64,000 nucleotides of DNA from Polytrichum commune (taxonomy: Eukaryota; Streptophyta; Polytrichopsida; Polytrichales; Polytrichaceae), in the NCBI GenBank assembly GCA_950295325.1, contig OX485805.1, positions 23,051,501-23,115,500 on the forward strand, in the 5' to 3' direction. Below, one piece after another: positions 1 through 34,904 of the stretch. The position numbers and the translations under genes are program-made. How positions within the stretch are numbered: the first letter of the stretch is position 1; each line of letters opens with the position of its first letter. Below the pieces are notes generated by a model. That model did not search any database. It was not told the DNA's origin and worked only from the letters and a program-made list of their open reading frames with translations.

Positions 1-170
1 AAGATATAAGAATTTATTTCGGTACCTAGATACTCCCAATCCTTTGCTTGTATGGTTTTGTTGACGGCAGGGACACACTTGGAAGTTAAGCCATTCGCTG
101 CAACTTAAAGTTAACCGACTCCAAAATTCTCACGGAGACAATTACAGAACCACTTCTGATCAACTCAACC

Positions 171-1137
171 ATGGTAGAAACCCATCCGAATTACGATGAG
201 CACGTAGCCGAAAATCTGGTTCAGATCGACAAGATCGAGAACCTGAAATTCATTCTACAGGAGTGGGAGAGGAACTTCGCGTTGGCTCGCAATAGGACGG
301 AGACTAAAAAAACACGGAGCTCCAATGTTAAGCAGGAGTTGTACCAGTTGATAGGGTTTTACGGTGTTTTTCAAGGGGTGATTGTATCTGCGGTTGCGCA
401 GGCAAATTTTGCATCACCTGCATCTTGGGGCCCTGTCTACTTGTCCGTTCTCGCCTCAATTGCCACGCTGCTCAGTGTGCACATCAAACTCCAAGACTAC
501 AAAATGTTGTACATGGATGCGGAGAAAGAATTGGCAGATGCAAAGGTTTGTCTTTAATCCACCACACAAACGCGAAAAACGTCACATGACTTCAAATATG
601 CTACAAATTATGAGTTCTGCTCTTTAAAATCCTCCAGATTTGACTAAATTTGGAGAGCACGCTGTTGAAGCCAGGATTGATTCCTGGTGATCACACCGAG
701 CTGTATGGATCATGTGAGATCCATATATGCACTAGGCGGAAATTGTGAAGTTCCTTTTGAGGTAGCCAGGAATAGAATTAATGGCAAAATTCAACAACCT
801 TGCGAAGTGTGTGTGTTTGAATTTAGTACTCTGCATGCAAGTCGAAAGTCGAGATTTGTGGCATTCTACGCTCACAAATGTTTCGTTAAACATTTGAACA
901 TTGCCCGAACATTCATATTTGCTGACCAGAGGTTTCTTTTGATGGCAGGTGTTGAACGCCAAGATCTCCCGGTTGAAGGAATATGGAGCATCTTTTGTGT
1001 TTGCAATGCATGCGAGAGATGACTTGAGGCCCAAAAAGCAACAGTATCAAGATAATTACTACTGGCCTATTATGATTTTCCTCTTTCTCTTCTCTTTCAT
1101 AGTCTGCGGTTCGGCCTTCATCGTAGTGTGGTGGTAG
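171..1137 (+). CDS. Two-exon small three-pass membrane protein, family not recognised
   Basis: The model has two exons, 171-545 and 949-1137. Exon 1 ends AAG before a GTTTGT donor and exon 2 follows a GATGGCAG acceptor; the frame is kept and the joined product is 187 residues. Residues 1-57 are charged and hydrophilic, with a helical segment near 20-45. Three hydrophobic stretches follow, at about 59-79, 87-104 and 163-186, the last ending in two tryptophans just before the stop. A charged loop (about 105-160) separates the second and third. The start ATG sits in an ACC-ATG-G context. A damaged second copy lies at 5975-6231 and ends at the same splice donor, which supports the exon boundary. 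Membrane location is inferred from hydrophobicity. I do not recognise the function. Confidence 0.72.
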
Positions 1138-2296
1138 AATATAGTAGAAATCACATACCTTACATGATACGAGTGTAACTGATGCCTAGATCAATTGGCC
1201 TACCACCAGAACAATTGTAGTAGCGGCCTTCTCACAAAAATTAGCAAACTATGGCACTTGGTTTCTTCTGTACGCTTAAAACCCAAATGATGGTAATCAT
1301 CGAACGAAATACCTGAAAGTGGCGATGATACTTATCGGCAGGCACCAATATCTCCCTTGATATTCCAGATATTTTTCCTTGACTAATTTCAAATCACCAC
1401 AATTTGAGACTATTGATTTTGGTAAATTTATTACTCATTCACTCTAGTCACAGGATTCGAACTTCACTCACAGATTCATATACTACAAAATTCAATCATA
1501 CATAGAATGCTCAATTTATCAGATGTACAATCCCTCATGTGTGGGTCAAGGTCTTCAAAAAAATTGTTTCCTTCCCATGTCCTTTTGTTGCTCCTTCATG
1601 AAGCAATTCTGCTATCACATGGAAGTTCGCAACATTCTGCATGAGCTTATCTGAATTTTAGAACATGAGACTTTTTTCAAGAACTTGCAAATGGTAACAT
1701 TACAAATGATCTACCACACATACAAAGAGTATCGTAAGACGATTGTTCAGTTATAGATCGATCAGAATGTGATGAATCCACCTGGCCAAATAAGCAGTCT
1801 AGCTTTGGGGTGCATTTAGTTTTAGCTTATTTTATAATATGCATTTTAAAATACTCAGCAAATTTTGAGATGTTTTTAATGTTTTTGATTATGAATTCAC
1901 TACTACAGTCAATCCAGGTCAATACGGCAAATATAGGCACGTGCAACTTCGTCAATTGTTCCATATTGTCATATAACATTAGTATAGTCAAACTCAACGG
2001 CAGTGTCGAAGCCCTAAGCCCTGCCACAAGAACTGACCAATATCAGAATACGGATTTCGCATCGGGGACTATCTAGGCGTAATCTTGGATCAATACTTGG
2101 GCAGAGAAGAGCTCGAAGAATTGATCTTGGAAGAGGGGAATGTTTCTGACAATGATTTACCATAAAAGACCTCAAAGATTGATGTCTTCAATGATTTTCA
2201 ATAAAAAAGACATTTTAAATGTTTTGAAATTTTTGAAATGTATTTTATAATGCCACCTCTGACCTCTAGAATACAAAATGCAACACCAGTCTAGCT
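1138..2296. other. Intergenic, no gene seen
   Basis: AT-rich sequence downstream of the membrane protein gene. Open frames are short and lack recognisable motifs. I see no repeat boundary or RNA gene here. Confidence 0.5.
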
Positions 2297-2793
2297 TCAA
2301 TGTACTTTGGGCACTTTGACATCTACGTGAAGTGTATTAAGGAATCTTTGCACCCACAAGTGTCTTCGCATGTCTGCAAGTCCACTAGCCTCTGATACTT
2401 TCAAAGAGTAGTAACGCCATTGTAACTGATGTACCGTTTGTGATGCCCCGCGTGCATGAATCAAGGGTATTTTATCCCAGATCTCTTTTGCTGTTTTACA
2501 ATTAATTAGATGCTCTAGAAGATTCGATCCACCGCTGCACTTATCATTGAGATGGATTTGCTGTCTCGCTTCAACCACTCTGCTGCTGTTGCAGCTGTTG
2601 ACACTTCAGTTCCATCGACTATTCTTTGTAACTCGGCAGCACGCAAGGCTGCATTCATCTGAAACTTCCACACATTGTATCCTGAACCGCTAAACTTTTG
2701 GATATGAGCAAGTCCTTTGAAGTCTGACAGGACTTCTTGAAAAGTAACACTACACCTCGCTTCCGCGTTTACACTCAGTCTTTCTTGCGACAC
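2297..2793 (-). pseudogene. Copia-type gag fragment, frameshifted
   Basis: Read on the minus strand, 2793 to about 2515 encodes a Copia-like gag N-terminus. It has a FSGSGYNVWKFQMNAAL segment typical of the gag-like UBN2/DUF4219 region, then an AAEWLKRDSKSISMI segment. A frameshift near 2515-2530 moves the frame, which continues as LLEHLINCKTAKEIWDKI, the characteristic next motif of this gag. The remainder decays and stops at 2297. No protease, integrase or reverse transcriptase follows, and no LTRs were identified. This is a dead fragment of a Ty1/Copia retrotransposon. The family call rests on remembered motif patterns and is fairly secure; the exact frameshift site is approximate. Confidence 0.7.
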
Positions 2794-3128
2794 CTAACTG
2801 CTTGAGACCTACTGTTCGAAACTATTGTTCAAAGCACTGTGCATAGCTAATGTTTAAACTACTGTTCGAAACTACTGTCTAAACAGCTTCTATACACCAA
2901 ATACAACGCAGAGCACTACTTTTTGATTGTAAAATTCGATGACACACAACATTGACAGGTTCAACCAGCAACGCATTCAACACACAAAGACAAGCAATCT
3001 GTGTATCACATACACACGATTCATGCAACTCATCTTGCATACACAGCTTCAGTATTCCATACACACGAACTCTCTCCGAGCTACTTTACTAAAGACTAAA
3101 TCACAGATTACAGGATCATTACTTAGTA
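2794..3128. other. Short intergenic stretch with a small repeat
   Basis: The phrase ACTGTTCGAAACTA occurs twice near 2811 and 2863. The stretch ends at the TA target of the Tigger/pogo-like element. No gene was seen. Confidence 0.4.
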
Positions 3129-3895
3129 CAGTCTAACCTCATTAATACGACACTCGTTTATACGACACCCTCGATATTACAACACATTTTTGCGTGACCA
3201 AACTTTAGTTCAAAACTCCCTCTTCTATACGACTACGATACTCGATAATGTGACATTTAGAATCTCCGTTTTGTCATATTAATGCTAAAATTCCTTTCAT
3301 CTATGTTATGTCCATCTATGTTAAATGCTAAGAGGTAGTTAATGCTAAAATTCCTTTCATCTATGTTATGTACATCTAAAATACATCCATTTTCACTTGG
3401 GGACTACTTGGAAACTTCACTTGGAACTTAACGAGAATCGAGGTTACTAGTGTAGAATGGACATGATTAGGGTTAGAGTGGCCTCTTGCCTATTATGTTG
3501 TTAAATGTCAATGCATCATTGTTGTCTAGTTTCTAATTAGAGACCTCTTCATATTTTGATGTTAACGAAACTATTAGTTTTCAAAAATTAGTAGGGAATT
3601 AAGATGAGATGATAATTACTAACTTGGGTAGACAACACCAAAAATCTTTAGACTCCTATTTCAAGAGTTCTTGAGAATATTTATATTTGTTTGGAGTTAT
3701 AAGTTGTTATTTCATACCATCTATATTGCTTAAACTCGTTGTGTATACATTTTAAGCTCATAATACTTAAGTTTTCATTTTCCCTCGATAATACACCAAC
3801 TTTACACCATTTGTCATATTAATGAGAAGACGACACCTCGATAATACGACTTTTTTTGTGTCTCCCAAACGTGTCATACTAAAGAGAGAGAGCAG
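3129..3895. mobile_element. Tigger/pogo-like (Tc1/mariner) non-autonomous element, copy 1
   Basis: The element is 767 bp, flanked by TA on both sides (3127-3128 and 3896-3897). It begins CAGTCTAACCTC and ends GAGAGAGAGCAG, and the subterminal ATTAATACGACAC and TTAGTATGACAC stretches form the terminal inverted repeats. Both ends, plus an internal stretch near 3505-3690, match the copy at 39478-40642, read from its right end. A 32-bp segment (AATGCTAAAATTCC...) is duplicated at about 3281 and 3340. Only a scrap of the transposase C-terminus remains, so it cannot mobilise itself. Confidence 0.82.
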
Positions 3896-4235
3896 TAGTA
3901 GCAGCAGCCTCAGCTGGCTACTTACAAGAGGATCCTGGGGCTCACAGAATAGTTTTTAGAAGCTTCCTGTACTTAGAAACTAACATAACGTGTATCTGGG
4001 AATGTTCAATGTGAACAGGTGCACCTCAAACCCTTAATTCCAATATTATGCAATGGGCCAACGAAAATAGGGACCAAGAATATTTTATCGAACAAATTTG
4101 TCATCGGTCCATCATTAGATGTGAAGGCTATTGATTTGGCTTTCAAAAAAACCAGTTATTGTCAAGGTTCGAGGTCGAAGTTGACTTCAATGGCTAGTTG
4201 CTTGAAACAGAACAAGGAGGATGAGTTGGATATAA
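3896..4235. other. Intergenic, no gene seen
   Basis: A short spacer between two transposons. An open frame runs from 4019 but shows no known motif and extends straight into the MITE at 4236, so I do not call it a gene. Confidence 0.4.
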
Positions 4236-4632
4236 GGGCCGGTTCACATTGGGCTCAAGTCCTAAGTCCCAAGTCACTTGAGGTAAATCCGTGCAATTTT
4301 AGCCATTGAGAGCATGGACGTTGGGACTAGCCACTTCACACAGGTTCCAAGTTCTAAGTTCCAAGTATGACATGAATTCTCATGGCAACATTTTTTGGAG
4401 GTGAGGCTCGGGACTTGTGTTTGAGAGTTGGGTCGAGCAAAAAGTTAGACTCAACTCTCAATACAAGTTCCATGAATATTTTTTTCCATAAAATAATCAA
4501 GATCCGACTTTAATGATAAATAACCGTATTTTGATGGTTTTTTGAGGTTCAAAAGTTGGGACTTTGCCTCCGTGTTGGGACTTGCTAACATGAGTGCAAC
4601 TTGGGACTTGGGGACCCCATGTGAACCGGCTC
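4236..4632. mobile_element. PIF/Harbinger-type MITE, family A copy 1
   Basis: This 397-bp element is bounded by TAA target duplications (4233-4235, 4633-4635). It begins GGGCCGGTTCACAT and, read inward from the other end, GAGCCGGTTCACATGGGG. The interior matches the element at 63542-63891, including the phrases on either side of a GGGTCGAGC motif. The TWA target and GGGCC terminus are the Harbinger (Tourist) signature. There is no coding capacity. Confidence 0.82.
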
Positions 4633-4635
4633 TAA

Positions 4636-4995
4636 GGTATGTGGGTGTTAATTGGTTTGTATTTCTTCTTCTCTATCTTTTATTAATCGTATTTACGTCT
4701 TTAAATTTTTGTTGCATTAGCAAATCTATTATGGAATATCATCATAAATTAGATTGAAAATTAGACCTCCCAAATTTAATTAGTTATGATTATTGGAAGT
4801 AGTGCATGATTGTTGAGTCCTTAAGTGAATATATAAACCCTCCCACTTGTATTCACTTTAAGCATGGAGTAGTTAATAAGATCTGAAGATGTAGTCCAAT
4901 GTCTTTTAAAAATGTGTCTTTATGGTGTGTTTTCTATGATCATGACCTAACCACACACCAATCAAATTGAGGTGTCGAATTAAGAAAAGCAACCC
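4636..4995. repeat. Dispersed repeat, related to the arms of the 55.7-56.5 kb element
   Basis: The order of phrases here (GGTATGTGGGTG, TTGTTGCATTAGCAAAT, GATTGAAAATTAGACCTCCC, GAAGATGTAGTCCAATG) follows the right arm of the inverted-repeat element at 56262-56560. It is a decayed single copy lying directly against the Harbinger MITE. No gene is contained. Confidence 0.55.
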
Positions 4996-4999
4996 AATA

Positions 5000-5974
5000 T
5001 CACCCGCATACCTTAACACAGAATGAGTGAGAAACATCTGTACCAACCCAATTTTTGCAATTGAGTTCCGAACCAACAAAAACTTGGAAACCGCAATTAT
5101 TTACAAAATCCTGTTCTATGTTTGGAAGGAATGCTCTGAAGTGAAAATTCCAAGAACCGTCTAGGTCTACTTTTGGTGCAAGCTTGCATTTCAGAAGAAG
5201 GATGCAAAAGTCTCCTTCGCTGATCTACGCAAAACTTCTGATATATCGACCTTACGTCTTGTGTACAGATCAGATTCGGCTACCCCAGTGTGTTTCTTGT
5301 TCAAATGGAGGAACCCACATTTTCTTACAGTAACTATTTGACCGACCCAAGATCCCTGGAGATGTGAGGTCATATTGTGTCACCTCTCTCAGGTTCACCA
5401 CCAACAAGAAGAACAACGGACCCTATGGTAAACCCAGCGAGCCGAGAAGTAAGTTTCGTACTCATCCTGGAGTAGTGGAAATTGACGAGATTGAATTGAA
5501 TGCTTTGGTGTAGGTAACGATCTTACGGGCTTGCACATATTCTCTAGAATTACACCACCGACCGCCACTCTTCGGTAGCGCTCCCATCAGATATTGTTGG
5601 CACAAAAAGCATAGTTTTCTGTGAAGGGGATATTTCTCCTGTGCTCAAAGAATACTCGTCAGAATTGATACTCACAGAGGAGCCTCCATACGACCAAGTC
5701 CGTGTCCCAGTTTGTAGCTGTTTTTACAAAACTCCCACTTGTCAGGTAAATATATCATGTGGACTGCCGAGGCAAGATGGCAATGAAGTAGCTCGAACCC
5801 TCTTATGGTTTCCAATTTCTCCTGTTTCGGGACGCCATGTTTTGTGCTTAACTTCTGTCAGAATTGAGGCAAAATTTCTTAATCGACACACTTTATCTAA
5901 ATGACCACTGATTTCAGGGCCATCATCGCCTCACAAATAACCTCATCGCACCTGGTGAACAGTCCAGGAAGGCC
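5000..5974. other. Unassigned region, possible trace of a lectin-like domain
   Basis: No intact gene was found. A plus-strand stretch near 5375-5450 reads VTSLRFTTNKKNNGPYG, which resembles a strand of the jacalin-related lectin fold, but flanking residues do not continue the domain and stops are close. The region lies just upstream of the damaged copy of the membrane protein gene and may hold its former upstream sequence. Confidence 0.25.
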
Positions 5975-6231
5975 ATGGTAGAACAACAAAACTTGCATCC
6001 CCTCCAGAGGACTCAGGATTGGATATATAGGGGTTCACAGTGTTTTTCAAGGGGTGGTGTTGACTGCTCTGGCGCAGGCAAGCACTGTCAAGTGCCATAC
6101 TTCTTGAGACCCTGCATCTTAATTTGTCTGAAGTCGCTTCAATTGCTACACTCTTCAGTGTCCACAACAAATTCAATGACTACAATGTGCTCAACGTGGA
6201 TGCCATGTCAGAGGAGTATGATGCCAAGGTT
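5975..6231 (+). pseudogene. Disrupted copy of the 171-1137 membrane protein gene (exon 1)
   Basis: It begins CCATGGTAGAA like the intact gene. It then recovers, in changing frames, VFQGVVLTALAQA (intact gene: VFQGVIVSAVAQA), SEVASIATLFSVH (LSVLASIATLLSVH) and EEYDAK before an identical GTTTGT donor at 6232. A TGA stands where the intact copy has TGG after the first hydrophobic stretch, and at least two frameshifts separate the matching blocks. I could not find a matching second exon before the HET gene. It is an old, non-functional segmental duplicate in the same orientation, about 5.8 kb from its source. Confidence 0.72.
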
Positions 6232-7694
6232 TGTGATCCTTGCAAGTCACATCTCAAAGCTATGCAATGAATCCACCTGGCTCTCCTTTCTATGCAATTC
6301 CTGTTCTCCCTCTGTAATATGACACCTTGGAGATATCAAGGAAGTGTAGTATTAGCGAGGTGGACTGTGCCAGTGCTCCCAAGTGAGTGTGCTTATTTAA
6401 ACTTATTTATGAGCCTTGCTGCCAGATGTTCGCATTCCATTCTTCAGGATCAGGTTCGATCATGCTCTCAGAATCATTTTAGTACTGTAGAAATTGGAAT
6501 GGGCATGATGTTGGAGTGATCTGGGGTGTAATAAACTTATACTTTCGAATTCCCTTACCACAAGTTCCTTCTTCTCTTTTAGCAGAGTGCGTTCTGTTTG
6601 AGCAGAGCGACCTTGATGCATGTTGTTAGGACCTGGAAATAGGTCACCATCACTACGTTGGTTTCGGAATTGCGTATGGCGGGTTCGGGGGATGCCGTGG
6701 GTTTTGGGGTTTAAGAGGCACAACATTATCTGGATCTTAGAGCTCGATTTGCAGGTCAAAGCGCCTTCTATAGCCATCGTGACTGCAAATTTGAAAGAGC
6801 TCAGGTGCAAGACAATTTTGAATAATATGGTGTCTCTAGAGTTCGTGAATTCAGATTCAGTGTTGCAGTTGAACAGCCATTTTACAAATGGCAGCGTAGC
6901 TGTTCAATTTGTGAAGCGTATTCGATTTGACTTGGAACTGTATCAAAACCTAATTGCTCTGTTTCTCGATGTGTTGCAGAACATTGAGCTAAGATTGCGT
7001 TGCTCTTGTGGGTCGTGTCATTCGTTCACACGCTTTGCAGTTTACCTGGCGACGTCTGCTGTGTTCGGTCTCTTACTTTGAGGAAAAGTGTAGAAGTGAA
7101 GTTTATGGTTACTTAACCTGCACTGTCTCGCACAGCTTGAATCGATGCACTCTCCTCTCCATCGGGACATGCTCTGCCGCCTTCACTAGGTGTCCTTTGT
7201 CACCGTCCGCTTTTGGCCATCATTGACAATGATATTTCTGCAAGCGGTCAGTGCCTTGATTTCCTGTTTCTTCTTGATTCTAGAATAAGTGCCTTCTCGG
7301 TGAATTCTATCAATCTATCCTTTGCAACTTGCTCACAGTAATTACATGTATGACCTCCATTGTACATCTGATAGTTAGTAATGACTCAATATCTGTCCTT
7401 GTCTGTCCTTGTTCGGTAGATGATCGTTTTTGTGAGCTAAGACAAACTTCGATATGGTTAGTTCAAGTTTTGGTCAAGCCTATAGTCAATATGACCTGAT
7501 AGATCGTCAGGGGTTCTTTTGCAGATTCTGTCTCAATGTAAACGACATGTGCAGACATGTGGTTTCTTCGTGCCTCTTAGAAGAAGTCCAATCCGCCACG
7601 CATCGCGCGGGTCAGTTCACAAGCCATCCATGGCTTTATGTAACCTCACCACCAGATTATGAAGTCACCGATTCGCCAGTAACACTGAAAGGCC
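6232..7694. other. Intergenic and upstream region of the HET gene
   Basis: Several open frames of 70-150 codons occur on both strands here, but none has recognisable motifs or splice-compatible continuation. The stretch must include the HET promoter; I see no clear TATA box that can be tied to a start site. Confidence 0.4.
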
Positions 7695-9920
7695 ATGGCA
7701 ATGTTTCTCGACGAAAACAGTTCACTAGTCCTGGCCGACTCGCCACTTTGCAAAATTTGTAACGCTCTGGACTTGGTCCAGATGTTCTATAAGGGCTTAA
7801 GAGAGTCCCACTCCATCACCCTTGGCGCCCTCGCCACAATCCTCTCGAAGGAGCACATTTGCGGCCTCTGCGGCTTGATCTCTCACTTGATATCTCGCAG
7901 TTGGCTTCTTGACCGCCACACAAATGAAGATCTCACATCGGTGCATGTTCAGCTGCTTGTAGAGCCCTGTGGCTGGGCAGATTCTTCTCACCCTGGGCCG
8001 CTCACTACATGCGCTCATCGCATTCAAGTCCGCGCCAAGCGGCCAATTGCAATCCATAGAACGGTAATGAAGGAGAAGATAGGGCTTACAATGGAGCTCC
8101 AGATGATGGAAGATGACGCGGCCAGGTTTGGACGTGAACGCGCGTATCATGGACGCAGGGTAGGGGCGGTGGTTAACTTAAAATTGATCAAGGAGTGGAT
8201 GCGCATTTGTGAGGAGGAACATGGACTGACTTGTGCCAATGTGTGGAAGAATGTCACGAAGCAGTTACCACAGGGCGCAAGGATGATTGATGTGGTTCGA
8301 ATGGCGGTTGTGGAGGCACCCCAGAATTGCAGGTATGTTGCCCTCAGTTATATGTGGGGAAATATCAACACGGATTACAAAACAGTCTTGAAGAATGTGG
8401 AAAAGCGACGTCATATGAGCAGTCTTGAGAGCGTGGGGTTGCCGAGAACCATCCGCGACGCAATCAAGCTTGTGCAGGAGCTAGGGGAAAGGTATCTGTG
8501 GGTCGACGCCTTGTGTATTGTACAAGATGATCCTGCCGACATCAAGGTCCAAGTAGCGGCCATGGCTACAATCTATGGTGCCGCAAGATTGACGATATTT
8601 TCTGCACCGGCTATGATTGTTGGAAGAGGCTCGGCGGATTCTCCACTCCCGGGGCTAGAGCCGGGGTCACGTAAAGAGATACAACGTATTGAGCGAATCC
8701 AGTCGTTGTCACTGGCTGTGCCGCTCAGGATGCTGATCGAGGCACTGGCTGCGTCCGAGTGGAACACGCGTGGATGGACATTTCAGGAGCATGTGTTGTC
8801 GCGACGGCGACTGTTCTTCACAAGTGAGCAGCTCTTCTTCGATTGTCAACGGGATGTGTTCTCCGAGGACATAATTGTCGAGAGCAGCAAAGACACAGCA
8901 ATGTATCCAGGAAAATCCCACGGCATTGGATATGGCGCGCTGCACTCCATCAGAAACATCAAAGATCAGCACAGCCGATACCAAGCCTATGCCAAAACCT
9001 TCATGCAGATGCTGGAGGAATACACCCGACGGCAGCTCACAAAGGCAGCTGACATCTACAATGCTATCTTTGCCATCATAACGGTGTTTTCACGCGATAT
9101 AGAAATGACTCCCTTAGATCCGAACACGGCGTTTTTGTTTGGTATGCCGGTGTCTGTGCTCGAAGACGCCATGTTGTGGCAACCTGCGCGAAATGCACCC
9201 GCGCGTAACCGCCGTCGCGAGCAAGGGTTGGTCACGCCAAGTTGGTCCTGGGCTGGCTGGGATATCAGTGTGGTGTACTTTGATATTGTCGGGTTCATGT
9301 ATGGCGCACCTGGGGCGTTGCGATCGCTGGTTGAGGAATGGGTCATTGTTGATTCGGATGGACAAGCCAGACGGATTGCCATCGGTCGCCACCTCTGGGA
9401 GCAACACCAGAATGCCAAATATCGTCGGCCTTCAAGCCCGTCAAGTGCATTGCTTGTTGAGGAGGGCGCGAGTCTAGCACCAGGAACGCTGCTATTCTAT
9501 ACCACTGTTGCATTCCTGAAGGTCAGAAAGGTCAACAATCGGCTTGACGAGATTACAGGGCAGGACCAGACCCAGGTTCCAGTCTATGGCAGTGAGTTTC
9601 ATTCGGTGTTTGAGGTTTTGTTAGAAGCATCGCCGCCTGCAAAGATGGGAAGGATTGTGCTGCCAAGTGACACTGACACGATGCTGCCCCTTGAGTTTGC
9701 AGTGCTCTCCCGTTCTAACATGGGCTGTAGCCCCGAAACTTATGACGAGCAGGTGTTTGGAGACCGCCATGAGGGGTGTTTGTTGAATGTTATGGCTATT
9801 ACGTCGTTAAAAAGTACGGTGTGTAGAAAGAAGGTCTCTGAAAGAATTGGCGTCGGCGTAATCGTGGAGGAAGGTTGGATTGCAGCAAGGTTCCAGGAAC
9901 GGGTGGTGCGCTTGCAGTGA
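7695..9920 (+). CDS. HET-domain (heterokaryon incompatibility-like) protein, fungal type
   Basis: A single open frame encodes 741 residues. The start lies in a GCC-ATG-G context; a second ATG two codons later is possible. An N-terminal zone carries two CxxC pairs (C19/C22, C56/C59), common in fungal HET proteins. The HET domain proper is clear: RYVALSYMWG at 213-222, LPRTIRDAI from 249, RYLWVDALCIVQDD at 266-279 and QVAAMATIYGAARLTI after it. Further family motifs are RGWTFQEHVLSRRRLFF from 359 and PSWSWAGW at 515-522. In fungi such proteins trigger cell death on non-self recognition; fungus-derived HET genes are known in mosses. The gene has no intron and visibly higher GC than its flanks, consistent with horizontal origin. 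Its role in this plant is unknown. Confidence 0.93.
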   Translation: MAMFLDENSSLVLADSPLCKICNALDLVQMFYKGLRESHSITLGALATILSKEHICGLCGLISHLISRSWLLDRHTNEDLTSVHVQLLVEPCGWADSSHPGPLTTCAHRIQVRAKRPIAIHRTVMKEKIGLTMELQMMEDDAARFGRERAYHGRRVGAVVNLKLIKEWMRICEEEHGLTCANVWKNVTKQLPQGARMIDVVRMAVVEAPQNCRYVALSYMWGNINTDYKTVLKNVEKRRHMSSLESVGLPRTIRDAIKLVQELGERYLWVDALCIVQDDPADIKVQVAAMATIYGAARLTIFSAPAMIVGRGSADSPLPGLEPGSRKEIQRIERIQSLSLAVPLRMLIEALAASEWNTRGWTFQEHVLSRRRLFFTSEQLFFDCQRDVFSEDIIVESSKDTAMYPGKSHGIGYGALHSIRNIKDQHSRYQAYAKTFMQMLEEYTRRQLTKAADIYNAIFAIITVFSRDIEMTPLDPNTAFLFGMPVSVLEDAMLWQPARNAPARNRRREQGLVTPSWSWAGWDISVVYFDIVGFMYGAPGALRSLVEEWVIVDSDGQARRIAIGRHLWEQHQNAKYRRPSSPSSALLVEEGASLAPGTLLFYTTVAFLKVRKVNNRLDEITGQDQTQVPVYGSEFHSVFEVLLEASPPAKMGRIVLPSDTDTMLPLEFAVLSRSNMGCSPETYDEQVFGDRHEGCLLNVMAITSLKSTVCRKKVSERIGVGVIVEEGWIAARFQERVVRLQ

Positions 9921-11086
9921 CGGATGCAGAGCAGGACTCTTCTCATTGATCTAACATCTTTTGGACGGGTGGTCACACCATCGAACTTTTTAAAATAGTA
10001 ATTTCTGTACTTTTAGTACTTTGGAGGGGTTTTGAGCTCCAAAATGAAATCCTCATAATTTTATTTTATAGAATCCCATGCAGAAGACTGGAACTAAGAG
10101 TTGTTGGCCATTCATGACATTGAATCTGCAATCTCGAATCCTGCTCTTTACATGATCACTAAAGGTCATTGCCATCTGGACTTTGTTATTCATTACTAAT
10201 ACTTGGAAATTCAAAAGCAATATGACAAAATTTATCGAAGTCTCCATCATAAGTCACCCTCCTTAGATCGAATATGACAAAATGAACAATACCACGCAAT
10301 TCCTGAGGCGAGCACCTTTGCACAAGTCCTTGGTACCCACATGCAATATTGGAGAGTGTTCTTGAACCCCATGTAACTGATGTGTAGACTCTATGGCATG
10401 CTGAACATGATAAGTAAAAGTTCAGCATACCACAGACCTTGTAGGTCCAATGCTAAGTATACCAAAGTTGAGCATGCACATCATTCCGAACAATCCTGCC
10501 ACAAGGGAATAACCTTGTTTCTGATAGAATGCTAAGACTTCAATGACCCATGGCAACATTAATTCTACATGACCTGAAGCACCCTGGAATCTAAATTTGC
10601 ACGTATATCTTTACAAGTTGGAACAAGTTAAAATCGAGAAGTAACAAATATTTTATCAGCATGCCCTTGGAACCTAAGAATGAAGGCCATGTGTTTGACC
10701 AGAGCAGGTGTATACAATTAATTGCCAGCAGACCTAAAAATTCGATCAACACTGCAGAAGTAAAGTGGCAAGAGAAAATCTCTACAGCTTTTTCAAGGAG
10801 GATACAACGCTAATTCATCCCATCTCTTGAAGGAACTGAGTCGCCAATGTCCAAAACTCTGTTACAAGAATGGAGGCAAAACACATGAACCCTGAAGATC
10901 CAACCTTTGAAGCTTGCTTGTTGGAATGCAGAATAACAGAGGGTTGAATACAATGGGCTGTTGCAGAATTTGCAACCAAATTCCTCACATGAATTTTGCC
11001 CAATTCAAATATCATCTTGAATTGCCCAGCTTTGTGTATCCAGCAATCTGATAACAGTCCTGGACAAGAAAAGGGTTTCATTAATC
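9921..11086. other. Intergenic, 3' side of the HET gene
   Basis: No gene was seen. An AT-rich stretch near 10050-10075 could serve as the HET polyadenylation zone. Open frames here are short and motif-free. Confidence 0.4.
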
Positions 11087-11205
11087 ATCTCGGTGCAAAT
11101 TATAAAAGGCAAGGTGGTTCATGGGAGCATGCTGGACTTGGTGATCACCCTCCACCATTCAAGCCCCTCCACTAATCACAGCGGGTGTGTGCAATGATTG
11201 GGGAG
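11087..11205. repeat. Direct repeat, left copy (partner at 12237-12360)
   Basis: The phrases TCGGTGCAAA, CATGGGAGCA, CATTCAAG and CCCTCCACTA appear in the same order here and at 12237-12360. The two copies bracket about 1 kb containing an AACCGGTT-family repeat and a terminal-inverted-repeat element. This could be a segment split by insertion plus duplication, or two ends of one older element. Confidence 0.55.
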
Positions 11206-11396
11206 AACCAGCAGTTAGTTACAGATGAACCGGTTGAGTTTGAGAAATAACCGGTTGAAGTTCAAGATTGCAGGAAAACCGATCAGTTTAGAGGAATTTA
11301 TAGAATATACCCCAATTTAACAAAGGAAAGCCGGAAGATGTCAACATGTAACCGATTGGACTTGCAAACACTAGGATCTCAACTGATTAAGCAATT
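11196..11396 (+). repeat. AACCGGTT-rich dispersed repeat, copy 1
   Basis: It contains GGGGAGAACCAGCAG, two AACCGGTT palindromes, and the phrase AAGATGTCAACATGTAACCG found in most other copies. The peptide read elsewhere in the family (STCNRLDLQTLG) can be followed here, with stops upstream of it. Other copies lie near 16.2, 22.3, 49.8, 50.3 and 54.4-56.2 kb. Confidence 0.7.
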
Positions 11397-11462
11397 GAAT
11401 ATAGGTGTAATATTTTATTTAGTGTGAGACTCACTCTAAAATGTCAATGACCAAACAACACT

Positions 11463-12145
11463 AAGGTAGAGGGTGCTAAAACCAACACCCCATCCAAAAC
11501 CAACATCTATAACCTTAAACCGTACCCGGCGGTGTAGGAGTGTCTAGGCCCACGGAGTGACGGTTTTAGGTGCCACTTCATAGCGACCTTCACTACCTCC
11601 ATGTAGGGTAGGTAACGGGTTCCACTCTGTCTCATGTTGGTTCAAGGTGGGATTAAGGTGGCTTGTCAATGCTTATTTTAACCATTCTATTCACAATGCC
11701 AAGGAGGTAGGCCCACAAAGCACAAAAGGGTCATTTCCCATGATGCAAGAGGGTCGGTTCCCGGGATGCAAGGTGATGGTTTTGCAAGCGAACTGGGTGG
11801 GATCATGGAGGTAGCCATGTGGCTTTGCATACTATTACTACTTGGGCTTTGACGTAGTTTGGGTCTAGTACCCAACTATGTTGTGTTGGTTCGTGGCAAT
11901 AAAGGTGGGGGTCCTCATCATATCCAAGGTTGCCATACAAGGGGCTTATGGCTTGGTTCAAGGAAGCTAGTAGTTTTGACTTTGAATATTCATCAAATAT
12001 TCAATTGAGACTAAAAATATTTTCTTCTTTCTTGATACCTATGTTTAGCCCAAAGGCTAATATGAATATATATTTTTTATATCAACCACATAGCCATATG
12101 TATGTGCAATAGCTTAAAGTGTTGGTTTGAGCACCCTCTACCTTA
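11463..12145. mobile_element. Terminal-inverted-repeat element of unassigned superfamily
   Basis: The left end reads AAGGTAGAGGGTGCTAAAAC and the right end, read inward, AAGGTAGAGGGTGCTCAAAC, followed in both by CAACAC. That is about 26 bp of near-perfect inverted repeat over about 683 bp. The target duplication is unclear because the ends are followed by A/T-rich bases that can be aligned in more than one way. The interior has no coding sequence. Confidence 0.7.
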
Positions 12146-12236
12146 ACTCAGAAGTCGTAAAGCCTAATAATGTTCACAATCTGTCGTAATGGCTTTGGAG
12201 AGTCATCGTCAACAACGGTTATATATATTTATCATC

Positions 12237-12360
12237 TTTGATCTCGGTGCAAAACATCAAAAGGGAAGATGGTACATGGGAGCAAGCCTGGCAGGGTAAT
12301 CGCCGACCGACATTCAAGTCCGTTATCCCTCCACTACCCGGAGCGGAAAGTGTGCGCTGC
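12237..12360. repeat. Direct repeat, right copy (partner at 11087-11205)
   Basis: Same phrase order as the copy at 11087. This copy continues into a GC-rich stretch. Confidence 0.55.
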
Positions 12361-14284
12361 TCAGTTACCTGCCTCACGCGGTGCCCTCCTCTATAACACC
12401 CGTGCAGCCCAGCCCTCCGACCGAACCCCACTGGTGACTCCTGGTTTGGAGTGGGCAGACTATCCACACGCAGCCAACGGCCCATACCCGGGGCCCCATG
12501 TCCACATCTTCCTGCCCCCCACTTGGGTAACAGGTGATCGCAACACCACCCAGCTGTAAGGAAAGGGTGGGAACGTGCCTTATATTCCTACTCCCTTCTC
12601 AGTACGCAAACCATAAGGGACAATGAGGTTGCCAATGAACACTTTTCTTTCCTGATAGGTATCCACTTCAGTCCTGTCAAGCTCCGTCGTACTGTGTGTG
12701 TTGGGACCTTCTCCACCATCCTCCTCCGCTCTGCTGTACCCAACTGACCGCTCTTCGACTGGGTTTAGGGTAGGGGCTGGGGTGCCCTCTTCGGATATGG
12801 ATGGTCAATTTTTCACTCTACCTCTCGCTGGTGTTATTCCAAAATCTGTCAAACTCGTGTCGCTCTGTAGACCTTTCATTGCTGCTTCTAGAACATTGTG
12901 AAGTGCGCAAGCTATGGTTGGGGCAGGATTCGCATACACTGAAGAGAGCACTGGCACTGCCATCATTAATGATCAAACCTCCTCAATATCATGCCTGGAC
13001 CATGTAAATCAAAACACTATCATCTACATGCTGTAATCATACTTTCTTCCTTAAATTGCACAAATAATCGGGTCATGCAACACGAAAAATTTAGCACACT
13101 CCTCCCTTCTCAATTCTCAACCATTGTTGTAAAACATTTCTTCACATATGGATGAAACCTCATGACAAGACCTGTCATGTAGCAAACAAGACATTTAAGA
13201 GCAGACATTTAAACCAGACATTTAAGAGCAGCAAGCAAGCATATATGAGCTACTCACAAAGAGAATCGAACAAAATCACCATCAAAAGGATGAAGAGCAA
13301 GCAAGAGATCATGTGACCCAAATATGCGGGCAGCTGCAGCTGTGAGAGATGAAAGACGCAGCAAAATTATTCGTCCAACTGCATAACCTCATAAACAAAG
13401 CTCTTCCTTTCAGAAAACCCAAGCGTGTGCACTGTCTTCTACATATTTCACCCAGAGATGGGTAATCAAGTGTGAATATTTCCAAAAAGCCTAGAAGAAC
13501 GTGGAGTAGAAACAGCAAGGACGAAGAAAACCCACACTGAGGCAGTTGGACAGAAGTGATGGATGTGCGAAGGCAACACAACCAACGAAGAGTAACAGTC
13601 AAGGTAACTTAGAGCATAACTTTGTTTTAGAGCAACTGGAAAGGAAGGATTCTGAGCTGTAAGTGATCCATAAGCCTCAATTTACATGCATTCTCAGGGG
13701 GTCGAGTGATACCAAACTTCAAATGAAACTCTATCTTCATCATTACATAGCCCACTCCTAAGGCTGTTGCTAAGTCACCCTAAGATGCCTCATGCTCAAA
13801 TTGGATGGTTTCAGCTCTGCTAAGCGACACCTATTTGCAAATTCAAGTCTACATTATGAGGAGGTTATAGTTCACATGTAGGTGAAGTTTTCCGGATAAA
13901 TGACCAGCATAGAACACAAAACCCTTGATCTCAACCTGATGCACTTCAAGCTTTAACTGTAAATTGCGCTCTAGCTGGACAGAAGTCTAGTCCACGCAGG
14001 CGGTAACAAACCCATGCTTCCATTACAATTACAGAGACAGCTCAGTCTGGATTAGACTTGCCATAAAATTACTCAGGCAGCAGAACAAAGAAGCATTGAG
14101 ACAAATGTCGAACAACCTTATGTCAAGTGTATAAAAAAATTCCAAAGGAAATTGTGCAATCAATTAGCCGCTCCTATGAGGAACATAAGACTAGTACATG
14201 TTTACCTCCCAACAACCCTAAAGGCTCACTAATTCCGAAGAGCACCTCTTTTTTAAGCACTCCTTTTCTGTCAAAATGCTGCGC
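12361..14284. other. GC-rich segment then unassigned DNA on the 3' side of RPF1
   Basis: About 12300-12800 is distinctly GC-rich and open in several frames on both strands, but I recognise no domain. From about 12900 the sequence returns to ordinary composition. The RPF1 transcript runs leftward into the right part of this region; no clear polyadenylation signal was found. Confidence 0.35.
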
Positions 14285-14571
14285 ATAATCATCAACTGTC
14301 TATCAAAGACAAAGTACATTGCCTACATGCTTTCTCCATGATTTCTAGCCTCTGCTGTACCAGTAGGCATCCACATTTTGGAGAGCTCTTCATATCGCTC
14401 TTCCTACTTAAGGGAAGAGCTGAAGAAAATCATCAACTATCTATCACAGACAAAAGGACATACATGCCTACATGCTTTCTCCATGATTTCTAACCTTTTC
14501 TGTACCAGTGGACATCCACATTTTGGAGCGCTCTTCAGATTGCTTTTGCTACTTAACTTAGAGGAAGAAGC
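14285..14571. repeat. Tandem direct duplication at the 3' end of RPF1
   Basis: Two copies of about 140 bp, 14285-14424 and 14426-14571, share CATGATTTCTA, CAGTRGRCATCCACATTTTGG and a following GCTCTTCA phrase. The right copy includes the last codons and stop of RPF1; the left copy has a decayed version of them. The RPF1 tail and the start of its 3' UTR were therefore duplicated in tandem. Confidence 0.8.
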
Positions 14572-15616
14572 GTCTTCGGCTCGTGTCCATGTCTGGCTTG
14601 TGCACCCATTCATATTCTCCATACTTGGAATCAAACGTTCCCGCTTGCAAACTTTGCAGTTTCAAAGTAAATCGTGGACCACATTCCTGGAGCCTCGCAA
14701 TTACACCTTTCCTCGTAACAGTTTTAGGTGCGCTCTTCTTTGATTTCTTGCCACTATCATCACCGGGAACTACTGGAGCCTTCTCCTTCACCTCCTTCTC
14801 CTCAAATACATATCTGTGATGCCTGAAGAAGATAAAATCCCGCTGGTTGTGAAATGTCACTGTTCGCCTACCCTTAAATTGAGGATCCTGGGGAAATATC
14901 GAAGCCAGCAATCTCCCAACTCGATGCCCAAGTCGGGTGGTGAAGTTGTTCAAAAGAAGCTCAGGCATATGCCTTGTAGGTTTCCCATGACCCTTAATCC
15001 TCTTACTAAGCTTAATACTGGAGAGCTTGAAATGTGCAGTAGGTCCTTCAGGCAGATTCACTACAAGCAGCCCATTCGGATTCTTCCGATTCTCATTCAC
15101 AACAAACATGGATGTAAATTCTCGGTTAGATGCATACTTCACAATCTGCTTCAGGTCATAACTCCTACGCTTGTAGTAATAAGTGTTGGGGATAACAGTG
15201 AGAAGCTCCTTGATAAACTTTCGCGTACTGGTGGAACACTCTTGACTCGTGGTGATAAGCAACTTGGGCACTCTCTCTCTACTAAAGTGACTGCTAAACT
15301 CATCCAGCCCTTCATCCGCCTGCAACTCATCGTCATCAGGTAAAGCCACAGTCTCATCCTGCTCCCTGGTGTTTTCGATTGTCCGCTGAGCTTTCCTCGG
15401 TGGAGGTGCCTCCCCGAGCTCCAACGCTTGCTTCTCCGCAGCATCTCTCAACTTGATACGCTTCTTCTTCTCAATAGACTTGTCCTTCTTCACCTTCTCG
15501 TAGGCCTCAGTTCGCTTCTGCTTATTCTTGAACTGCGATGGCAGCTTCTCCCCTGCCTTACGAAGCGCCTCCTCGCCTGCATCCTCCTCCTCATCTTGCC
15601 GCATGCGCTTCCCCAT
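14558..15616 (-). CDS. RPF1: Ribosome production factor 1 (Brix domain)
   Basis: The 352-residue protein is a nucleolar factor of pre-60S assembly; in yeast Rpf1 is needed for processing of the 27S pre-rRNA. A basic, lysine-rich N-terminal region (1-60) is followed by the family segment LELGEAPPPRKAQRTIENTR (65-84). An acidic patch comes next, then the Brix domain from KLLITTSQ (118) to about 325. The conserved segments NLPEGPTAHFKL, NNFTTRLGHRVGR and GRRTVTFHNQRDFIFFRHHR (249-268) are all present, as is the family's C-terminus EYEWVHKPDMDTSRRRFFL. The lysine/serine insert at 280-303 is of the kind that varies in plants. The coding region has no intron; a CAG just before the ATG could be the acceptor of a 5' UTR intron. 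Length and motifs match intact plant orthologues. Confidence 0.96.
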   Translation of the reverse strand: MGKRMRQDEEEDAGEEALRKAGEKLPSQFKNKQKRTEAYEKVKKDKSIEKKKRIKLRDAAEKQALELGEAPPPRKAQRTIENTREQDETVALPDDDELQADEGLDEFSSHFSRERVPKLLITTSQECSTSTRKFIKELLTVIPNTYYYKRRSYDLKQIVKYASNREFTSMFVVNENRKNPNGLLVVNLPEGPTAHFKLSSIKLSKRIKGHGKPTRHMPELLLNNFTTRLGHRVGRLLASIFPQDPQFKGRRTVTFHNQRDFIFFRHHRYVFEEKEVKEKAPVVPGDDSGKKSKKSAPKTVTRKGVIARLQECGPRFTLKLQSLQAGTFDSKYGEYEWVHKPDMDTSRRRFFL

Positions 15617-16189
15617 CCTGCGATGCTCACGAAGTTAGGACGAAGACGAAGATGAAGAACAAATGAGGACAAAGATCACCAAAATTAGCACAATAAGATG
15701 AGACAAACCATCGAAACATATCACTTGTGGTATCTAAACCCATCTACGCGTTTGGTTACAAGTAGCCCTTGAAGAAAGTCCTAATGCAGAAGACCAATTT
15801 ACACCATGAGTGCTCCAAAATCCCTGAACTCCCCCAAAAAAATCCGATTTATTATCTAAATTGCTCGGGAACCCTAAAATCCTCCAGAAAGAAGTTGGTG
15901 TCCCCCGGGATCGCTAGCGCGCCAAATTGGCCATGGAAAGAGACGTAGAGACGAAGGTTATTAACTTGATTGGATCGAATACAGGGGAAGAATGCGAGAC
16001 ACACCTCGGTAGGAGAGAAGAGGCAGCGGGAGGCCGAATGATCGATCGACCGAGAGAGACAAGCTCGCGAAAAAGGACTTACAACGTTCGCGGCGCTGCT
16101 CCAAAACCCTGATAGGAATAGCGTCCTCTCAGAGGCTCCTCAAAAGAGGACCTACGCCCCTGCCCGCCCTGCCCGCCAGCCCGCACGCT
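15617..16189. other. RPF1 upstream region
   Basis: This is the 5' flank of RPF1. It contains a telo-box-like motif at 15870-15878, and a TGGGCT (site II-like) at 16194-16199 lies just beyond. The plus-strand open frame from 15927 has no recognisable motif and is not called. Confidence 0.5.
15870..15878. promoter_or_regulatory. Telo-box-like motif upstream of RPF1
   Basis: AACCCTAAA lies about 250 bp upstream of the RPF1 start codon. Telo-boxes paired with TGGGCY elements are well known in promoters of plant ribosome-biogenesis genes. The match is short and could be chance. Confidence 0.35.
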
Positions 16190-16640
16190 TCAGTGGGCTG
16201 CCCTTGACACTGCCCGGGGAGATTTTTGGGCATAACCGGTGGAGATCCCAGTGTTTCCAAGTCCAACCGGTTACATGTTAACATCTTCGGTTTTCCTTTA
16301 TTAGTTTGAGACATTTTTATATAATTCCTCTAAATTGATCGGTAATTTTCTTGAAGTCTTGAAATTCATCCGGTCATTTCTCAAACTCAACCACTTGATT
16401 TGTAACTATACTAAATATTGCATTTAGTGTCACTTATTATTTGGAGTTACACAATGCTATATTTTTTTATTATCAAATGTAAATTTCATCAAGTAAAGAT
16501 GTCGATGTTCTATAATGTTTAAACAACTTAGTTTGACCTTTTTGGGGAAAAAAATGAGACATACAATAAATGGTTATAGCAATGCATCATTCCAAATACA
16601 AAGTAACATTGAATACAATATTTAGTGTAGTGGTCAATTC
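16190..16640 (-). repeat. AACCGGTT-rich repeat copy 2, with a CACTA-ended insert
   Basis: The stretch 16190-16410 reads as the reverse complement of the family, including GTCCAACCGGTTACATG. On the minus strand it keeps MLTCNRLDLETLGSPPVMPK. From about 16410 a segment begins ACTAAATATTGCATTTAGTG and ends near 16633 with CAATATTTAGTGTAGTGG. The same insert sits at the same relative position in the copy at 50.3-50.7 kb, while copies near 55.0 and 55.5 kb lack it. Confidence 0.68.
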
Positions 16641-16704
16641 TCCTTGTTCATTGGTCCACAAACCCCATCTTTAGTGCACCTCACCTTCAAGGTCCAAAAT
16701 CCTA

Positions 16705-16729
16705 TGTGTGTGTGTGTGTGTGTGTGTGT
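16705..16729. repeat. (TG)n microsatellite
   Basis: About 12 uninterrupted TG units. Confidence 0.95.
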
Positions 16730-16849
16730 ATGTTCACTTTCAATTGATAAATAAGCATCTGATTGGGATTTCATTTCCAAAATGCATTGCTCACTAGACT
16801 TTTAACCCTTGATTGGTCAAGCACTTTCTTTAAATCATTACACTTACAA

Positions 16850-16850
<1 letters not shown>

Positions 16851-16884
<34 letters not shown>
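16851..16884. repeat. Poly(A) tract, 34 bases
   Basis: An uninterrupted run of A. No flanking target duplication was found, so I do not call it a retroposon tail. Confidence 0.95.
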
Positions 16885-16885
<1 letters not shown>

Positions 16886-19341
16886 GCTTCTTTGTTTCTA
16901 TTGATTTAATCATTGCTTTAAGCAATGTTATTGCTATATCATTGATGATTCAATCTATATGACATCATGTGTTTTGTTAGTTTTTGGAGGGTTTAGGCTC
17001 TATACATGTATAACTTATAGTCCATCCTCATAGCCTATGGGATAGGAAATTTTGAGATGAAAATAGATTCCCAAGCATAGTATTCCAAGAAACTTGTTTT
17101 TGGAGAAAAAGTACACAATTTCTCATTCATCAACCACAAAATTATTGCATGGGCAACTAAGATTTAAGTATCATGCTGACATGTTCTTTTTCATGAAATG
17201 TATGTTACATAGAAGGTGAGTGAGTTGGTTTCAACCTCCTATTTTTTGAAACAATTTATGGCACAATAGTTCAAAAAATAGAATTTTATTATGAAAGTAT
17301 TTGAAATTTGTGATTGATGATATGAATCACTTCAACATCATGTGTTTATTGATCTTTCATGGATCATACATTTGATACATAGAGAAATATTTTTGGATGA
17401 ATATTTATGCATGTCAATGGATAAGCTCAAAATGTACATAATTGAAGATCTTAGGTGCTATATTGACTAAACATACATATGTGTGTAATGTTAAATATGA
17501 TCACACTAGTAGATATACAAACCTAACATTATGATAAGAAACCAAAAACAATGGTTACATATGTGGATAAAACCTTAACAACAATTTAATTAAGCATATA
17601 AATTGAGAGCTTTGGTAAGAGGCCTTTGTAAATTACTCATTGGATTAACTCCATAAGAGATAAGTTTCAATCCCTATTTGAGAAGGTTGCATAAGGGAGT
17701 CTCAAGTCTTTATTTCAATTGGATCATCAAGTTGAAACTAGCCTCTACCTCACAAAGTCTACCACACTACCCCACTCTAGGGAATTAGCACAAAATTCAC
17801 ATCATGTTGTACAATCTCAAAATATTGCATGTATGAGACGCCCAAATTGGGTTCAAAAATTTTAGGGGTTAGTATGAATGCACTTATCATTAATTGTGAC
17901 TTATAACGGATACTAAAATAATGGGCAACAATTTGACAACACCTTGATGTACTTTTAGTCCCATAAGCCTTTTGGTTTCCTAGACTCTAAGATCAATTTC
18001 ATTCCATTGGAAAACTCAAAAGACCGTGACAATACAATAACTACCCTAAAAAGGCCTTTGTAGATTATTCAAATGATTACTCAAAAGTTCCTCTTCAAAA
18101 TCTAATGGATAAATTTAATCATCTTTGAAAAAGCATCTTCATGCATAATCAAAATTAAAACCTCACTAAGAGGTCAAAAAAACTTTCACCATATATACAT
18201 GCACAATAACAATGTGTATTACATTGAATAACAGTTTTGGAACTCATTGAACCATTCTTAATGTTTTCACAAACACGAGTTGGTAGCCAACCTACATACC
18301 CACAAAAAACCAACTTTAAGTTTATTTTAATCATACAAATCTTAATTTTTTACAAATTCTATAATTTCACCTTCAATATTATTTGAACCCTAAACCTCAT
18401 AAGTACTAACTCACCAAAACCACATAGTTTATATATTTTTTCAAAGTACACCGAACATATGTATTACAATATATTTTGAAACACAACATTATTATTATTT
18501 CGAAACTAGCACACCCACAAAATCATACGTTCAACGATTTTCCCAAGTAGACAATGACAATATGTATGACAATTTTAGAATGTGTTGAAACCCACATAAA
18601 TTCAACATGTACAACATAAATATGCAAAAAATACGTACCTTTAAACCTCTAATGATTGATGTCTTGAATGCAAAGCTCAATCCCTTTTTGTCCTGAAGTC
18701 ACTCCTCAAAAATAAAAATTTGCATCACAACTTTAGAACATGGTAAGAAACTTAAGATTGAGAATGGTTGCTAACTTGCACACCCACAAAACCATACATT
18801 CTAAAAGAAAATCTCAAAGTATACAACAACAATGTCCATAAGACTATTTGGCTTCGAACTCTCATTATTTCATATCTTCACTTCAAAGCTTACACTCATG
18901 TGATCACTTCAAAGCTCGCACTCTCTTTTTCAAGATTGGACTTTCTCAAGAACTCGATCATTTAGTGAATAGGCATCACAAGTTTAGAATGTGGTAAAAA
19001 ACTCAACATTGCAATTGGTTGCTAACTTGCATACCCTAAAACCACAAATTCTCCTTTTTCTTGAAATATGCACGAGTTTTGGGTGTACTTAGAAATGATT
19101 GAGGCCGATGCAATTTAGGTTTGAACACCATCCAATTTAGATATGAACCATGGAAAGCAAGATGCTATTGACCTTATTAGTCCCTTGAATTAAAATAATG
19201 TCGAGATTTACATTCAAACTCTATTTGCTTAACAAATATAGATCTCATACATGTCAACATTACATGTACCTTAGTGGGTAATTAAATGAACATGGTCAAC
19301 TATAGATGCCTCGATCTTATGTAATTTATAACTTCTAGCTT
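16885..19341. other. AT-rich intergenic DNA, no gene seen
   Basis: About 2.4 kb of AT-rich sequence with very few long open frames and no recognised motifs or element ends. The phrases around 18720-18790 and 18985-19045 (GGTAAGAAACT / GGTAAAAAACT then GGTTGCTAACTTGCA) are partly repeated, suggesting an old local duplication. Confidence 0.45.
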
Positions 19342-34300: not shown

Positions 34301-34904
34301 AAAGTGACATGGAGGACAAAAAACTGTCTTTGACTATTTTCAAACCGAATTTGAAGGCAATTGTCAAACTGTTCTAGAAAAAATTCAATAACGAGCGATT
34401 GTACAAATCTGCGAGATCAACCTAACGACACCAAAAATAACAAATTTGAGGATGGGCTGTAATTTCTATGAAGTTTGATAGTTTTAGGCTATCTAGCAAC
34501 AAACTGCAAAGTTTTAGTCCACCCGACTCTTCCTTGGGCGATGGCTTCCTACATGGTTCACGTGTACTCGGAGTTCGTTGGCTGAAGATCTAGCTACTCA
34601 AGGTGGCTCGAAATTTTTCCCAAAGTTGCACTTGCTATGAGTTGTACTGTGGCCGCTTGGATTTGCATGTTTCTCACTTCACAAAATTCTCCTGAATTTC
34701 TATGAGAAATGCTCTTCTGCAAACCACTATATCACAAAAGCCCCGACGTACCTTTGATCCGTTGAGTGAGAGCCCTTCCACGCATGACTCCCGGATCACT
34801 ATGGCCCGACTTTCGTCTCTGTTCGATTGGTAAGTCTTATAGTCATGCAAGCTTGTACCATTATGCTCTAAAGCTGTCAAAATATTAGCTTGAGCCCACC
34901 ATCA
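31351..34904. other. Intergenic, no gene recognised
   Basis: Mostly AT-rich sequence. A plus-strand open frame near 32175-32387 is not matched by any family I know. A C-run lies near 32903. Sequence around 33840-34880 is somewhat richer in GC but shows no domain or splice-linked exons I can defend. Confidence 0.35.

Follow-up and report, generated by a model that had tools for sequence, protein, structure and literature searches.

A full-length HET-domain gene of fungal type and its family in a moss nuclear genome

The HET gene and its 5' flank

The window, by which we mean the whole 64,000-nucleotide stretch of DNA analysed here (C3:23051501-23115500; contig C3 = 59.16 Mb, assembly = 407.8 Mb in 64 contigs), carries a HET-domain gene on its plus strand (7695..9920), whose uninterrupted frame of 741 codons has no internal stop and encodes a 741-aa protein starting at M1 (7695) or M3 (7701). 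The stop-to-stop frame measures 743 aa, compared with a maximum of 399 aa among 100 randomised 64-kb sequences that match the HET gene in dinucleotide make-up, and a frame of this length is unexpected by chance. Pfam revealed a single HET domain (PF06985) at aa 214-365 (8334..8789, plus strand), which covers profile positions 1-146 of 146 (E = 1.1e-30; 107.3 bits versus a curated cut-off of 22.5). According to both Pfam and the motif scan, this domain ends in RGWTFQE, and three HET motif blocks begin at aa 216, 269, and 359, including W[IV]DxLC[IL] and RxWTxQE (patterns worded from our own alignments). Outside the domain, we found two N-terminal CxxC pairs at aa 19-22 (7749..7760, plus strand) and aa 56-59 (7860..7871, plus strand), each invariant in all four long-type members of the family described below, and a C-terminal SWSWAGW block at aa 516-522 (9240..9260, plus strand) that is present in 4 of the 11 intact members. 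The initial annotation had described an intact HET gene in a plant genome, with its hallmark motifs and both CxxC pairs preserved; the Pfam match, the motif scan, and the 741-aa open frame in a nuclear moss chromosome all agree with that description. No TIR, NACHT, or WD40 domain was found by Pfam in the 741-aa protein, and a PDB search with it returned nothing at E <= 1. An AlphaFold model of aa 195-541 together with four bacterial homologues reached a pLDDT of 30.3 and was left unused for fold comparison.

The 5' flank (7385..7694, plus strand) contains two blocks, at about 7385-7433 and 7608-7694, that are alike in the paralogue on C1. In a shuffle test restricted to non-coding bases, the blocks scored 43 and 38, respectively, versus maxima of 28 and 21 in 300 shuffles, while the 700 bases downstream of the ORF had no block in common with C1 (score 22, reached by 102 of 300 shuffles). 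The second block falls within the long open frame of C1; in the window, a stop lies between this block and the gene. Between the blocks, GT and TTTTGCAG (TGTTGCAG in C1) align, and a putative 5' intron is possible at about 7416-7524; taken by itself, the intron stretch shows weak similarity (score 24, reached by 7 of 300 shuffles; 50 versus 42 under milder scoring).

Genomic setting and base composition

Two neighbours lie less than 6 kb from the end of the HET gene: a plant SRP RNA gene (12265..12554, minus strand; E = 6e-46), which provides plant-side context, and a Brix-domain ORF of 352 aa (14558..15616, minus strand; Pfam E = 3e-33), which represents native-gene context. A light-harvesting profile search of the genome yielded 58 matches. 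The best PDB matches of one Lhca3-like and one Lhcb9-like ORF were chains of 8htu and 7xqp, which we take to be Physcomitrium photosystem I entries with one chain being the moss antenna Lhcb9, and we therefore assign the host to the mosses. The HET gene is integrated in a chromosome of this moss and belongs to its nuclear genome. Separately, we observed an array of 14 light-harvesting genes with equal domain scores at C5:1.75-1.85 Mb.

GC content per 1-kb bin rises to 0.47-0.52 over 7001-10000, compared with 0.35-0.44 in the seven preceding bins, and the bin 23001-24000 also stands at 0.51. The GC-richer island reported in the initial annotation is therefore real, but it is no sign of foreign DNA, since the HET gene (GC 0.521, GC3 0.580) falls inside the range of native moss genes (GC/GC3 of 0.482/0.545 in the Brix gene; 0.525-0.609/0.566-0.753 across eight light-harvesting ORFs). 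We accordingly ruled it out as a mark of foreignness.

We recognised no further fungal family around the HET gene by Pfam in positions 1-17000, a range touched by 33 stop-to-stop frames of 85 aa or more (22 scanned; the other 11 overlap the HET gene, the SRP RNA, or the Brix ORF), a threshold that shorter exons would escape. Besides HET and Brix, the scan gave weak traces, the best being a copia gag match below the cut-off (E = 3.2e-4). Elsewhere in the window, a bacterial-type LSU rRNA fragment was detected at 34761-34930 (minus strand; Rfam, E = 1.2e-23) that may be organelle DNA copied into the nucleus. In addition, a 55-nt stretch at 351-405 recurs 5.7 kb further on at 6027-6081 (80% alike); the two repeats lie within open frames (90-557 and 5912-6322) in which no Pfam family passes the cut-off.

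A HET family in the moss genome

The initial annotation treated the gene on its own and so overlooked a family. A Pfam HET search of the genome gave 12 matches, all above the cut-off, 11 of which (including the window gene) have open frames spanning 540-800 aa. The copy at C4:5.256 Mb is identical to that on C50, a contig of 48.7 kb, so the intact set amounts to ten distinct proteins, accompanied by one broken copy and relics. The matches listed for four family searches are confined to C1-C7, with a single exception on C50, a pattern suggestive of an n = 7 moss such as Polytrichum. P. patens has 26 chromosomes (PMC13120521). The broken copy, at C7:37.868 Mb, is interrupted, leaving frames of 129 and 274 aa, and reads WTFQD, whereas WTxQE is kept in all intact members. 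W[IV]Dx[LF]C[IL] and RxWTxQE are likewise present in 11/11 intact members, and the first motif block in 10/11. Two architectures can be distinguished: the long one, with CxxC pairs and SWSWAGW, occurs in four members (the window, C1, C4:18.5 Mb, and C4:39.1 Mb), while the other seven lack both features. Five short-type genes (L012, L013, L015, L016, and L018) are clustered at C4:5.18-5.30 Mb, and three of these are mutually 72-95% identical.

The closest paralogue of the window gene is the C1 copy (58% identical, tblastn). The proteins of the window, L010, and L011 are 31-33% mutually identical in aligned codons, with saturated synonymous sites. Short fragments from the window/C1 subfamily also turned up in a genome-wide protein search, one place being C1:61.1 Mb and the other C3:56.1 Mb (E values of 3.7e-4 and 6.8e-4). 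The surrounding segments, C1:61.113-61.122 Mb and C3:56.060-56.069 Mb, resemble each other over several kb at 86-90% identity (mostly about 90%) and each carry two relic N-terminal pieces of HET, a pattern that speaks for duplication and decay within the moss. A tree of ten moss and four bacterial HET proteins supported the long-type clade (100/99) but left the deep forks unsupported (45/0), with a tool warning of long branches.

Selection on the family

Paralogues of this family are under purifying selection. Between the window and C1 genes (58% identity, 726 aligned codons) we obtained dN = 0.310 and dS = 1.081, with a dN/dS of 0.286 (95% bootstrap 0.221-0.351) that could in part stem from evolution in fungi if the two genes parted before being transferred separately. 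The ratio was lowest in the HET domain (0.205), followed by the N-terminal (0.261) and C-terminal parts (0.334). The C4 cluster provides better evidence of constraint in the moss, because its linked copies most simply arose in place: dN/dS was 0.423 (0.333-0.550) for L013/L015 and 0.434 (0.336-0.557) for L015/L016, and the youngest pair, L013/L016, was indistinguishable from neutral (0.629, 0.348-1.175). Substitutions simulated at 5% of sites introduced a mean of 4.4 stops into the window frame and left it clean in 1.7% of 300 simulations. With these signs of constraint in hand, the gene appears to be kept by selection, as the initial annotation had suggested.

Bacterial HET homologues

A genome scan for bacterial HET genes confirmed 4 of 29 candidate stretches, remote homologues at 22-26% identity, and HET scored above the Pfam cut-off in all four genomes (L020, L021, L022, and L023). 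A plasmid search with bacterial HET gave one match, a fifth gene on a Sulfitobacter plasmid (L073) whose protein is 70% identical to that of L021. In the two proteins scanned for its position (L020 and L021), the HET domain starts at aa 50 and 40. All five bacterial genes sit beside Thoeris-type genes in two types of cassette: L020 and L023 neighbour ThsA (SIR2-STALD) and ThsB-TIR, and L021, L022, and the plasmid gene neighbour ThsB-TIR, a TIR_2 gene, and a SLOG cluster3 gene. These cases are not independent, since four of the proteins form one clade and the plasmid protein is so close to L021.

PADLOC contained no model matching the HET protein of L020. In the open-access PMC literature, we found no paper that links HET to Thoeris or heterokaryon incompatibility to SLOG, and none on heterokaryon incompatibility with WxxxE; PMC9153377 names HET and Thoeris in separate passages. 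HET may be a part of Thoeris-like anti-phage cassettes that has so far gone unrecorded. Among mobile elements, the 46 pattern matches in viral contigs included no relative of the window family, and the 2 for bacterial HET likewise included none; a plasmid search with the window protein gave no match, and a phage search gave no HET match.

Origin of the moss HET genes

Paired CxxC motifs, SWSWAGW, and the long architecture are usual in ascomycete HET proteins. A putative fungal origin fits this architecture, the sequences compared here being moss and bacterial HET. On balance, we favour as the somewhat more probable account a horizontal gain of an ascomycete-type HET gene, followed by duplication into a small family that would act as a TIR-like death or defence effector. 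Mis-assembly of fungal contaminant DNA into the plant is a notion that HET, as a hallmark fungal family, naturally raises, and small redundant contigs do exist, as the C50 copy identical to one on C4 illustrates. However, contamination is very unlikely, because the gene sits 23 Mb deep in a 59-Mb contig with the plant SRP RNA and Brix genes within 6 kb; the multi-copy family, with diverged paralogues on three more large contigs (C1, C4, and C7), lowers its probability further, to almost nil. We likewise consider it improbable that the gene is a passenger, surviving by chance with no expression and no role and owing its intact frame to youth. Such a fate would be in keeping with the one broken copy and the others reduced to fragments, but a dS of 1.08 to the nearest copy at a dN/dS of 0.29 argues against it, as do the long frames in 11 of the 12 HET matches.

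Another account retains a fungal source but invokes several transfers, so that the four long-type copies (window, C1, C4 18.5 Mb, and C4 39.1 Mb) would derive from different fungal HET genes and their low dN/dS would have been earned in fungi. The identity of only 31-33% among the window, L010, and L011 proteins, with synonymous sites saturated, is consistent with this account, and HET families are large and highly variable among fungi (PMC10197012). We nevertheless rate it as rather unlikely, given the relics in the C1 and C3 segments of about 90% identity that point to duplication and decay in the moss, the 5' blocks common to the window and C1, a GC3 within the native range, and C4 copies that most simply diverged in place under constraint; the same points would still accommodate several ancient transfers. 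An old vertical or bacterial, rather than fungal, origin seems improbable to us. It would accord with the HET homologues in Proteobacteria and with the occurrence of HET in green algae, stramenopiles, and other eukaryotes (PMC4986451). Yet the bacterial homologues are only 22-26% identical, measure about 490 aa with 39-49 aa before HET in L020 and L021, and align without the SWSWAGW block, and HET was detected in 1 of 398 sampled genomes of the phylum, the seed genome itself.

Proposed function and relation to known systems

Published work describes the HET domain as an inducer of death in fungi and as a remote relative of TIR, with a glutamate common to both (PMC10197012, PMC4986451, PMC9153377, the last for the glutamate), its enzymatic activity being still to be established (PMC10197012). 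Within W361-x-x-x-E365 of the window protein, we infer that E365 of WTFQE would be the counterpart of the TIR glutamate. Our working model, the most likely one in our analysis, is a TIR-like death or signalling effector with a predicted activity. The gene would presumably be expressed, and its protein would probably work in the manner proposed for its fungal counterparts: holding and sensing would fall to the cysteine-rich N-terminal half and the C-terminal half, and the TIR-like HET domain at the centre would be released or clustered upon a trigger. The freed domain could then act via its conserved glutamate (WTFQE), with a localised cell-death or defence signal as the putative outcome. Seven of the 11 intact proteins have neither the CxxC pairs nor SWSWAGW, so holding by these parts would not extend to the whole family.

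HET genes in mosses, whose fungus-derived copies the initial annotation had mentioned, are already in print: HET homologues have been published from bryophytes (PMC4986451), and Physcomitrium patens is reported to have HET genes in two 'fungal regions', FR1 and FR2 (Sun et al. 2020, New Phytologist, via PMC7911284 and PMC11228847). Like the window gene, the P. patens FR1/FR2 form places a HET domain in a moss nuclear genome and is read as fungus-derived. It is termed truncated in PMC11228847, whereas the window protein has long N- and C-terminal parts, and FR1/FR2 are described as blocks with further fungal genes, whereas Pfam recognised no other fungal family beside the window gene in positions 1-17000. 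The window gene extends this known case of fungal-type genes in mosses to a full-length, multi-copy repertoire. Compared with the passages on mosses in these papers, our data add a protein of full length, a count of intact copies that come in two architectures, signs of constraint, and a link to bacteria.

Stand-alone ascomycete HET proteins (for example those of the Neurospora tol, pin-c, and het-6 systems; PMC10197012) have the HET domain in common with the window protein, whose host, however, is a plant. The HET-NLR proteins HET-E/D/R of Podospora also possess a HET domain, but the window protein is without NACHT or WD40 by Pfam. TIR domains of plant and bacterial immunity have remote homology and the glutamate in common with HET (PMC4986451, PMC9153377), although the window protein itself has no TIR match by Pfam.

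These comparisons leave room for a broader and rather doubtful idea, namely that HET is a branch of the TIR signalling world spread over bacteria, fungi, and mosses. It would belong to Thoeris-type anti-phage cassettes in bacteria and carry out non-self death in fungi; mosses would have taken it up and would maintain some ten intact copies, adding a second cell-death system of TIR-like kind to their own TIR set. A moss other than P. patens can hold multi-copy, full-length, constrained genes of the fungal non-self death type, and whether plants use fungal immune genes therefore becomes testable in a tractable plant. The bacterial HET-Thoeris neighbourhoods offer an independent, testable lead to HET domain function.

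Seven HET places were nearer to TIR than random same-contig places (fraction 0.0035), a closeness that we set aside and do not rely on, because gene density was uncontrolled and two of the seven lie >12 Mb from any TIR. The broken C7 copy (L017) has a TIR-domain match about 10 kb off, with gene density again uncontrolled. Across the whole genome we counted 129 TIR-domain matches, many of them clustered (C1:76.5-77.4, C3:25.2-26.7, and C5:48.3-48.9 Mb).
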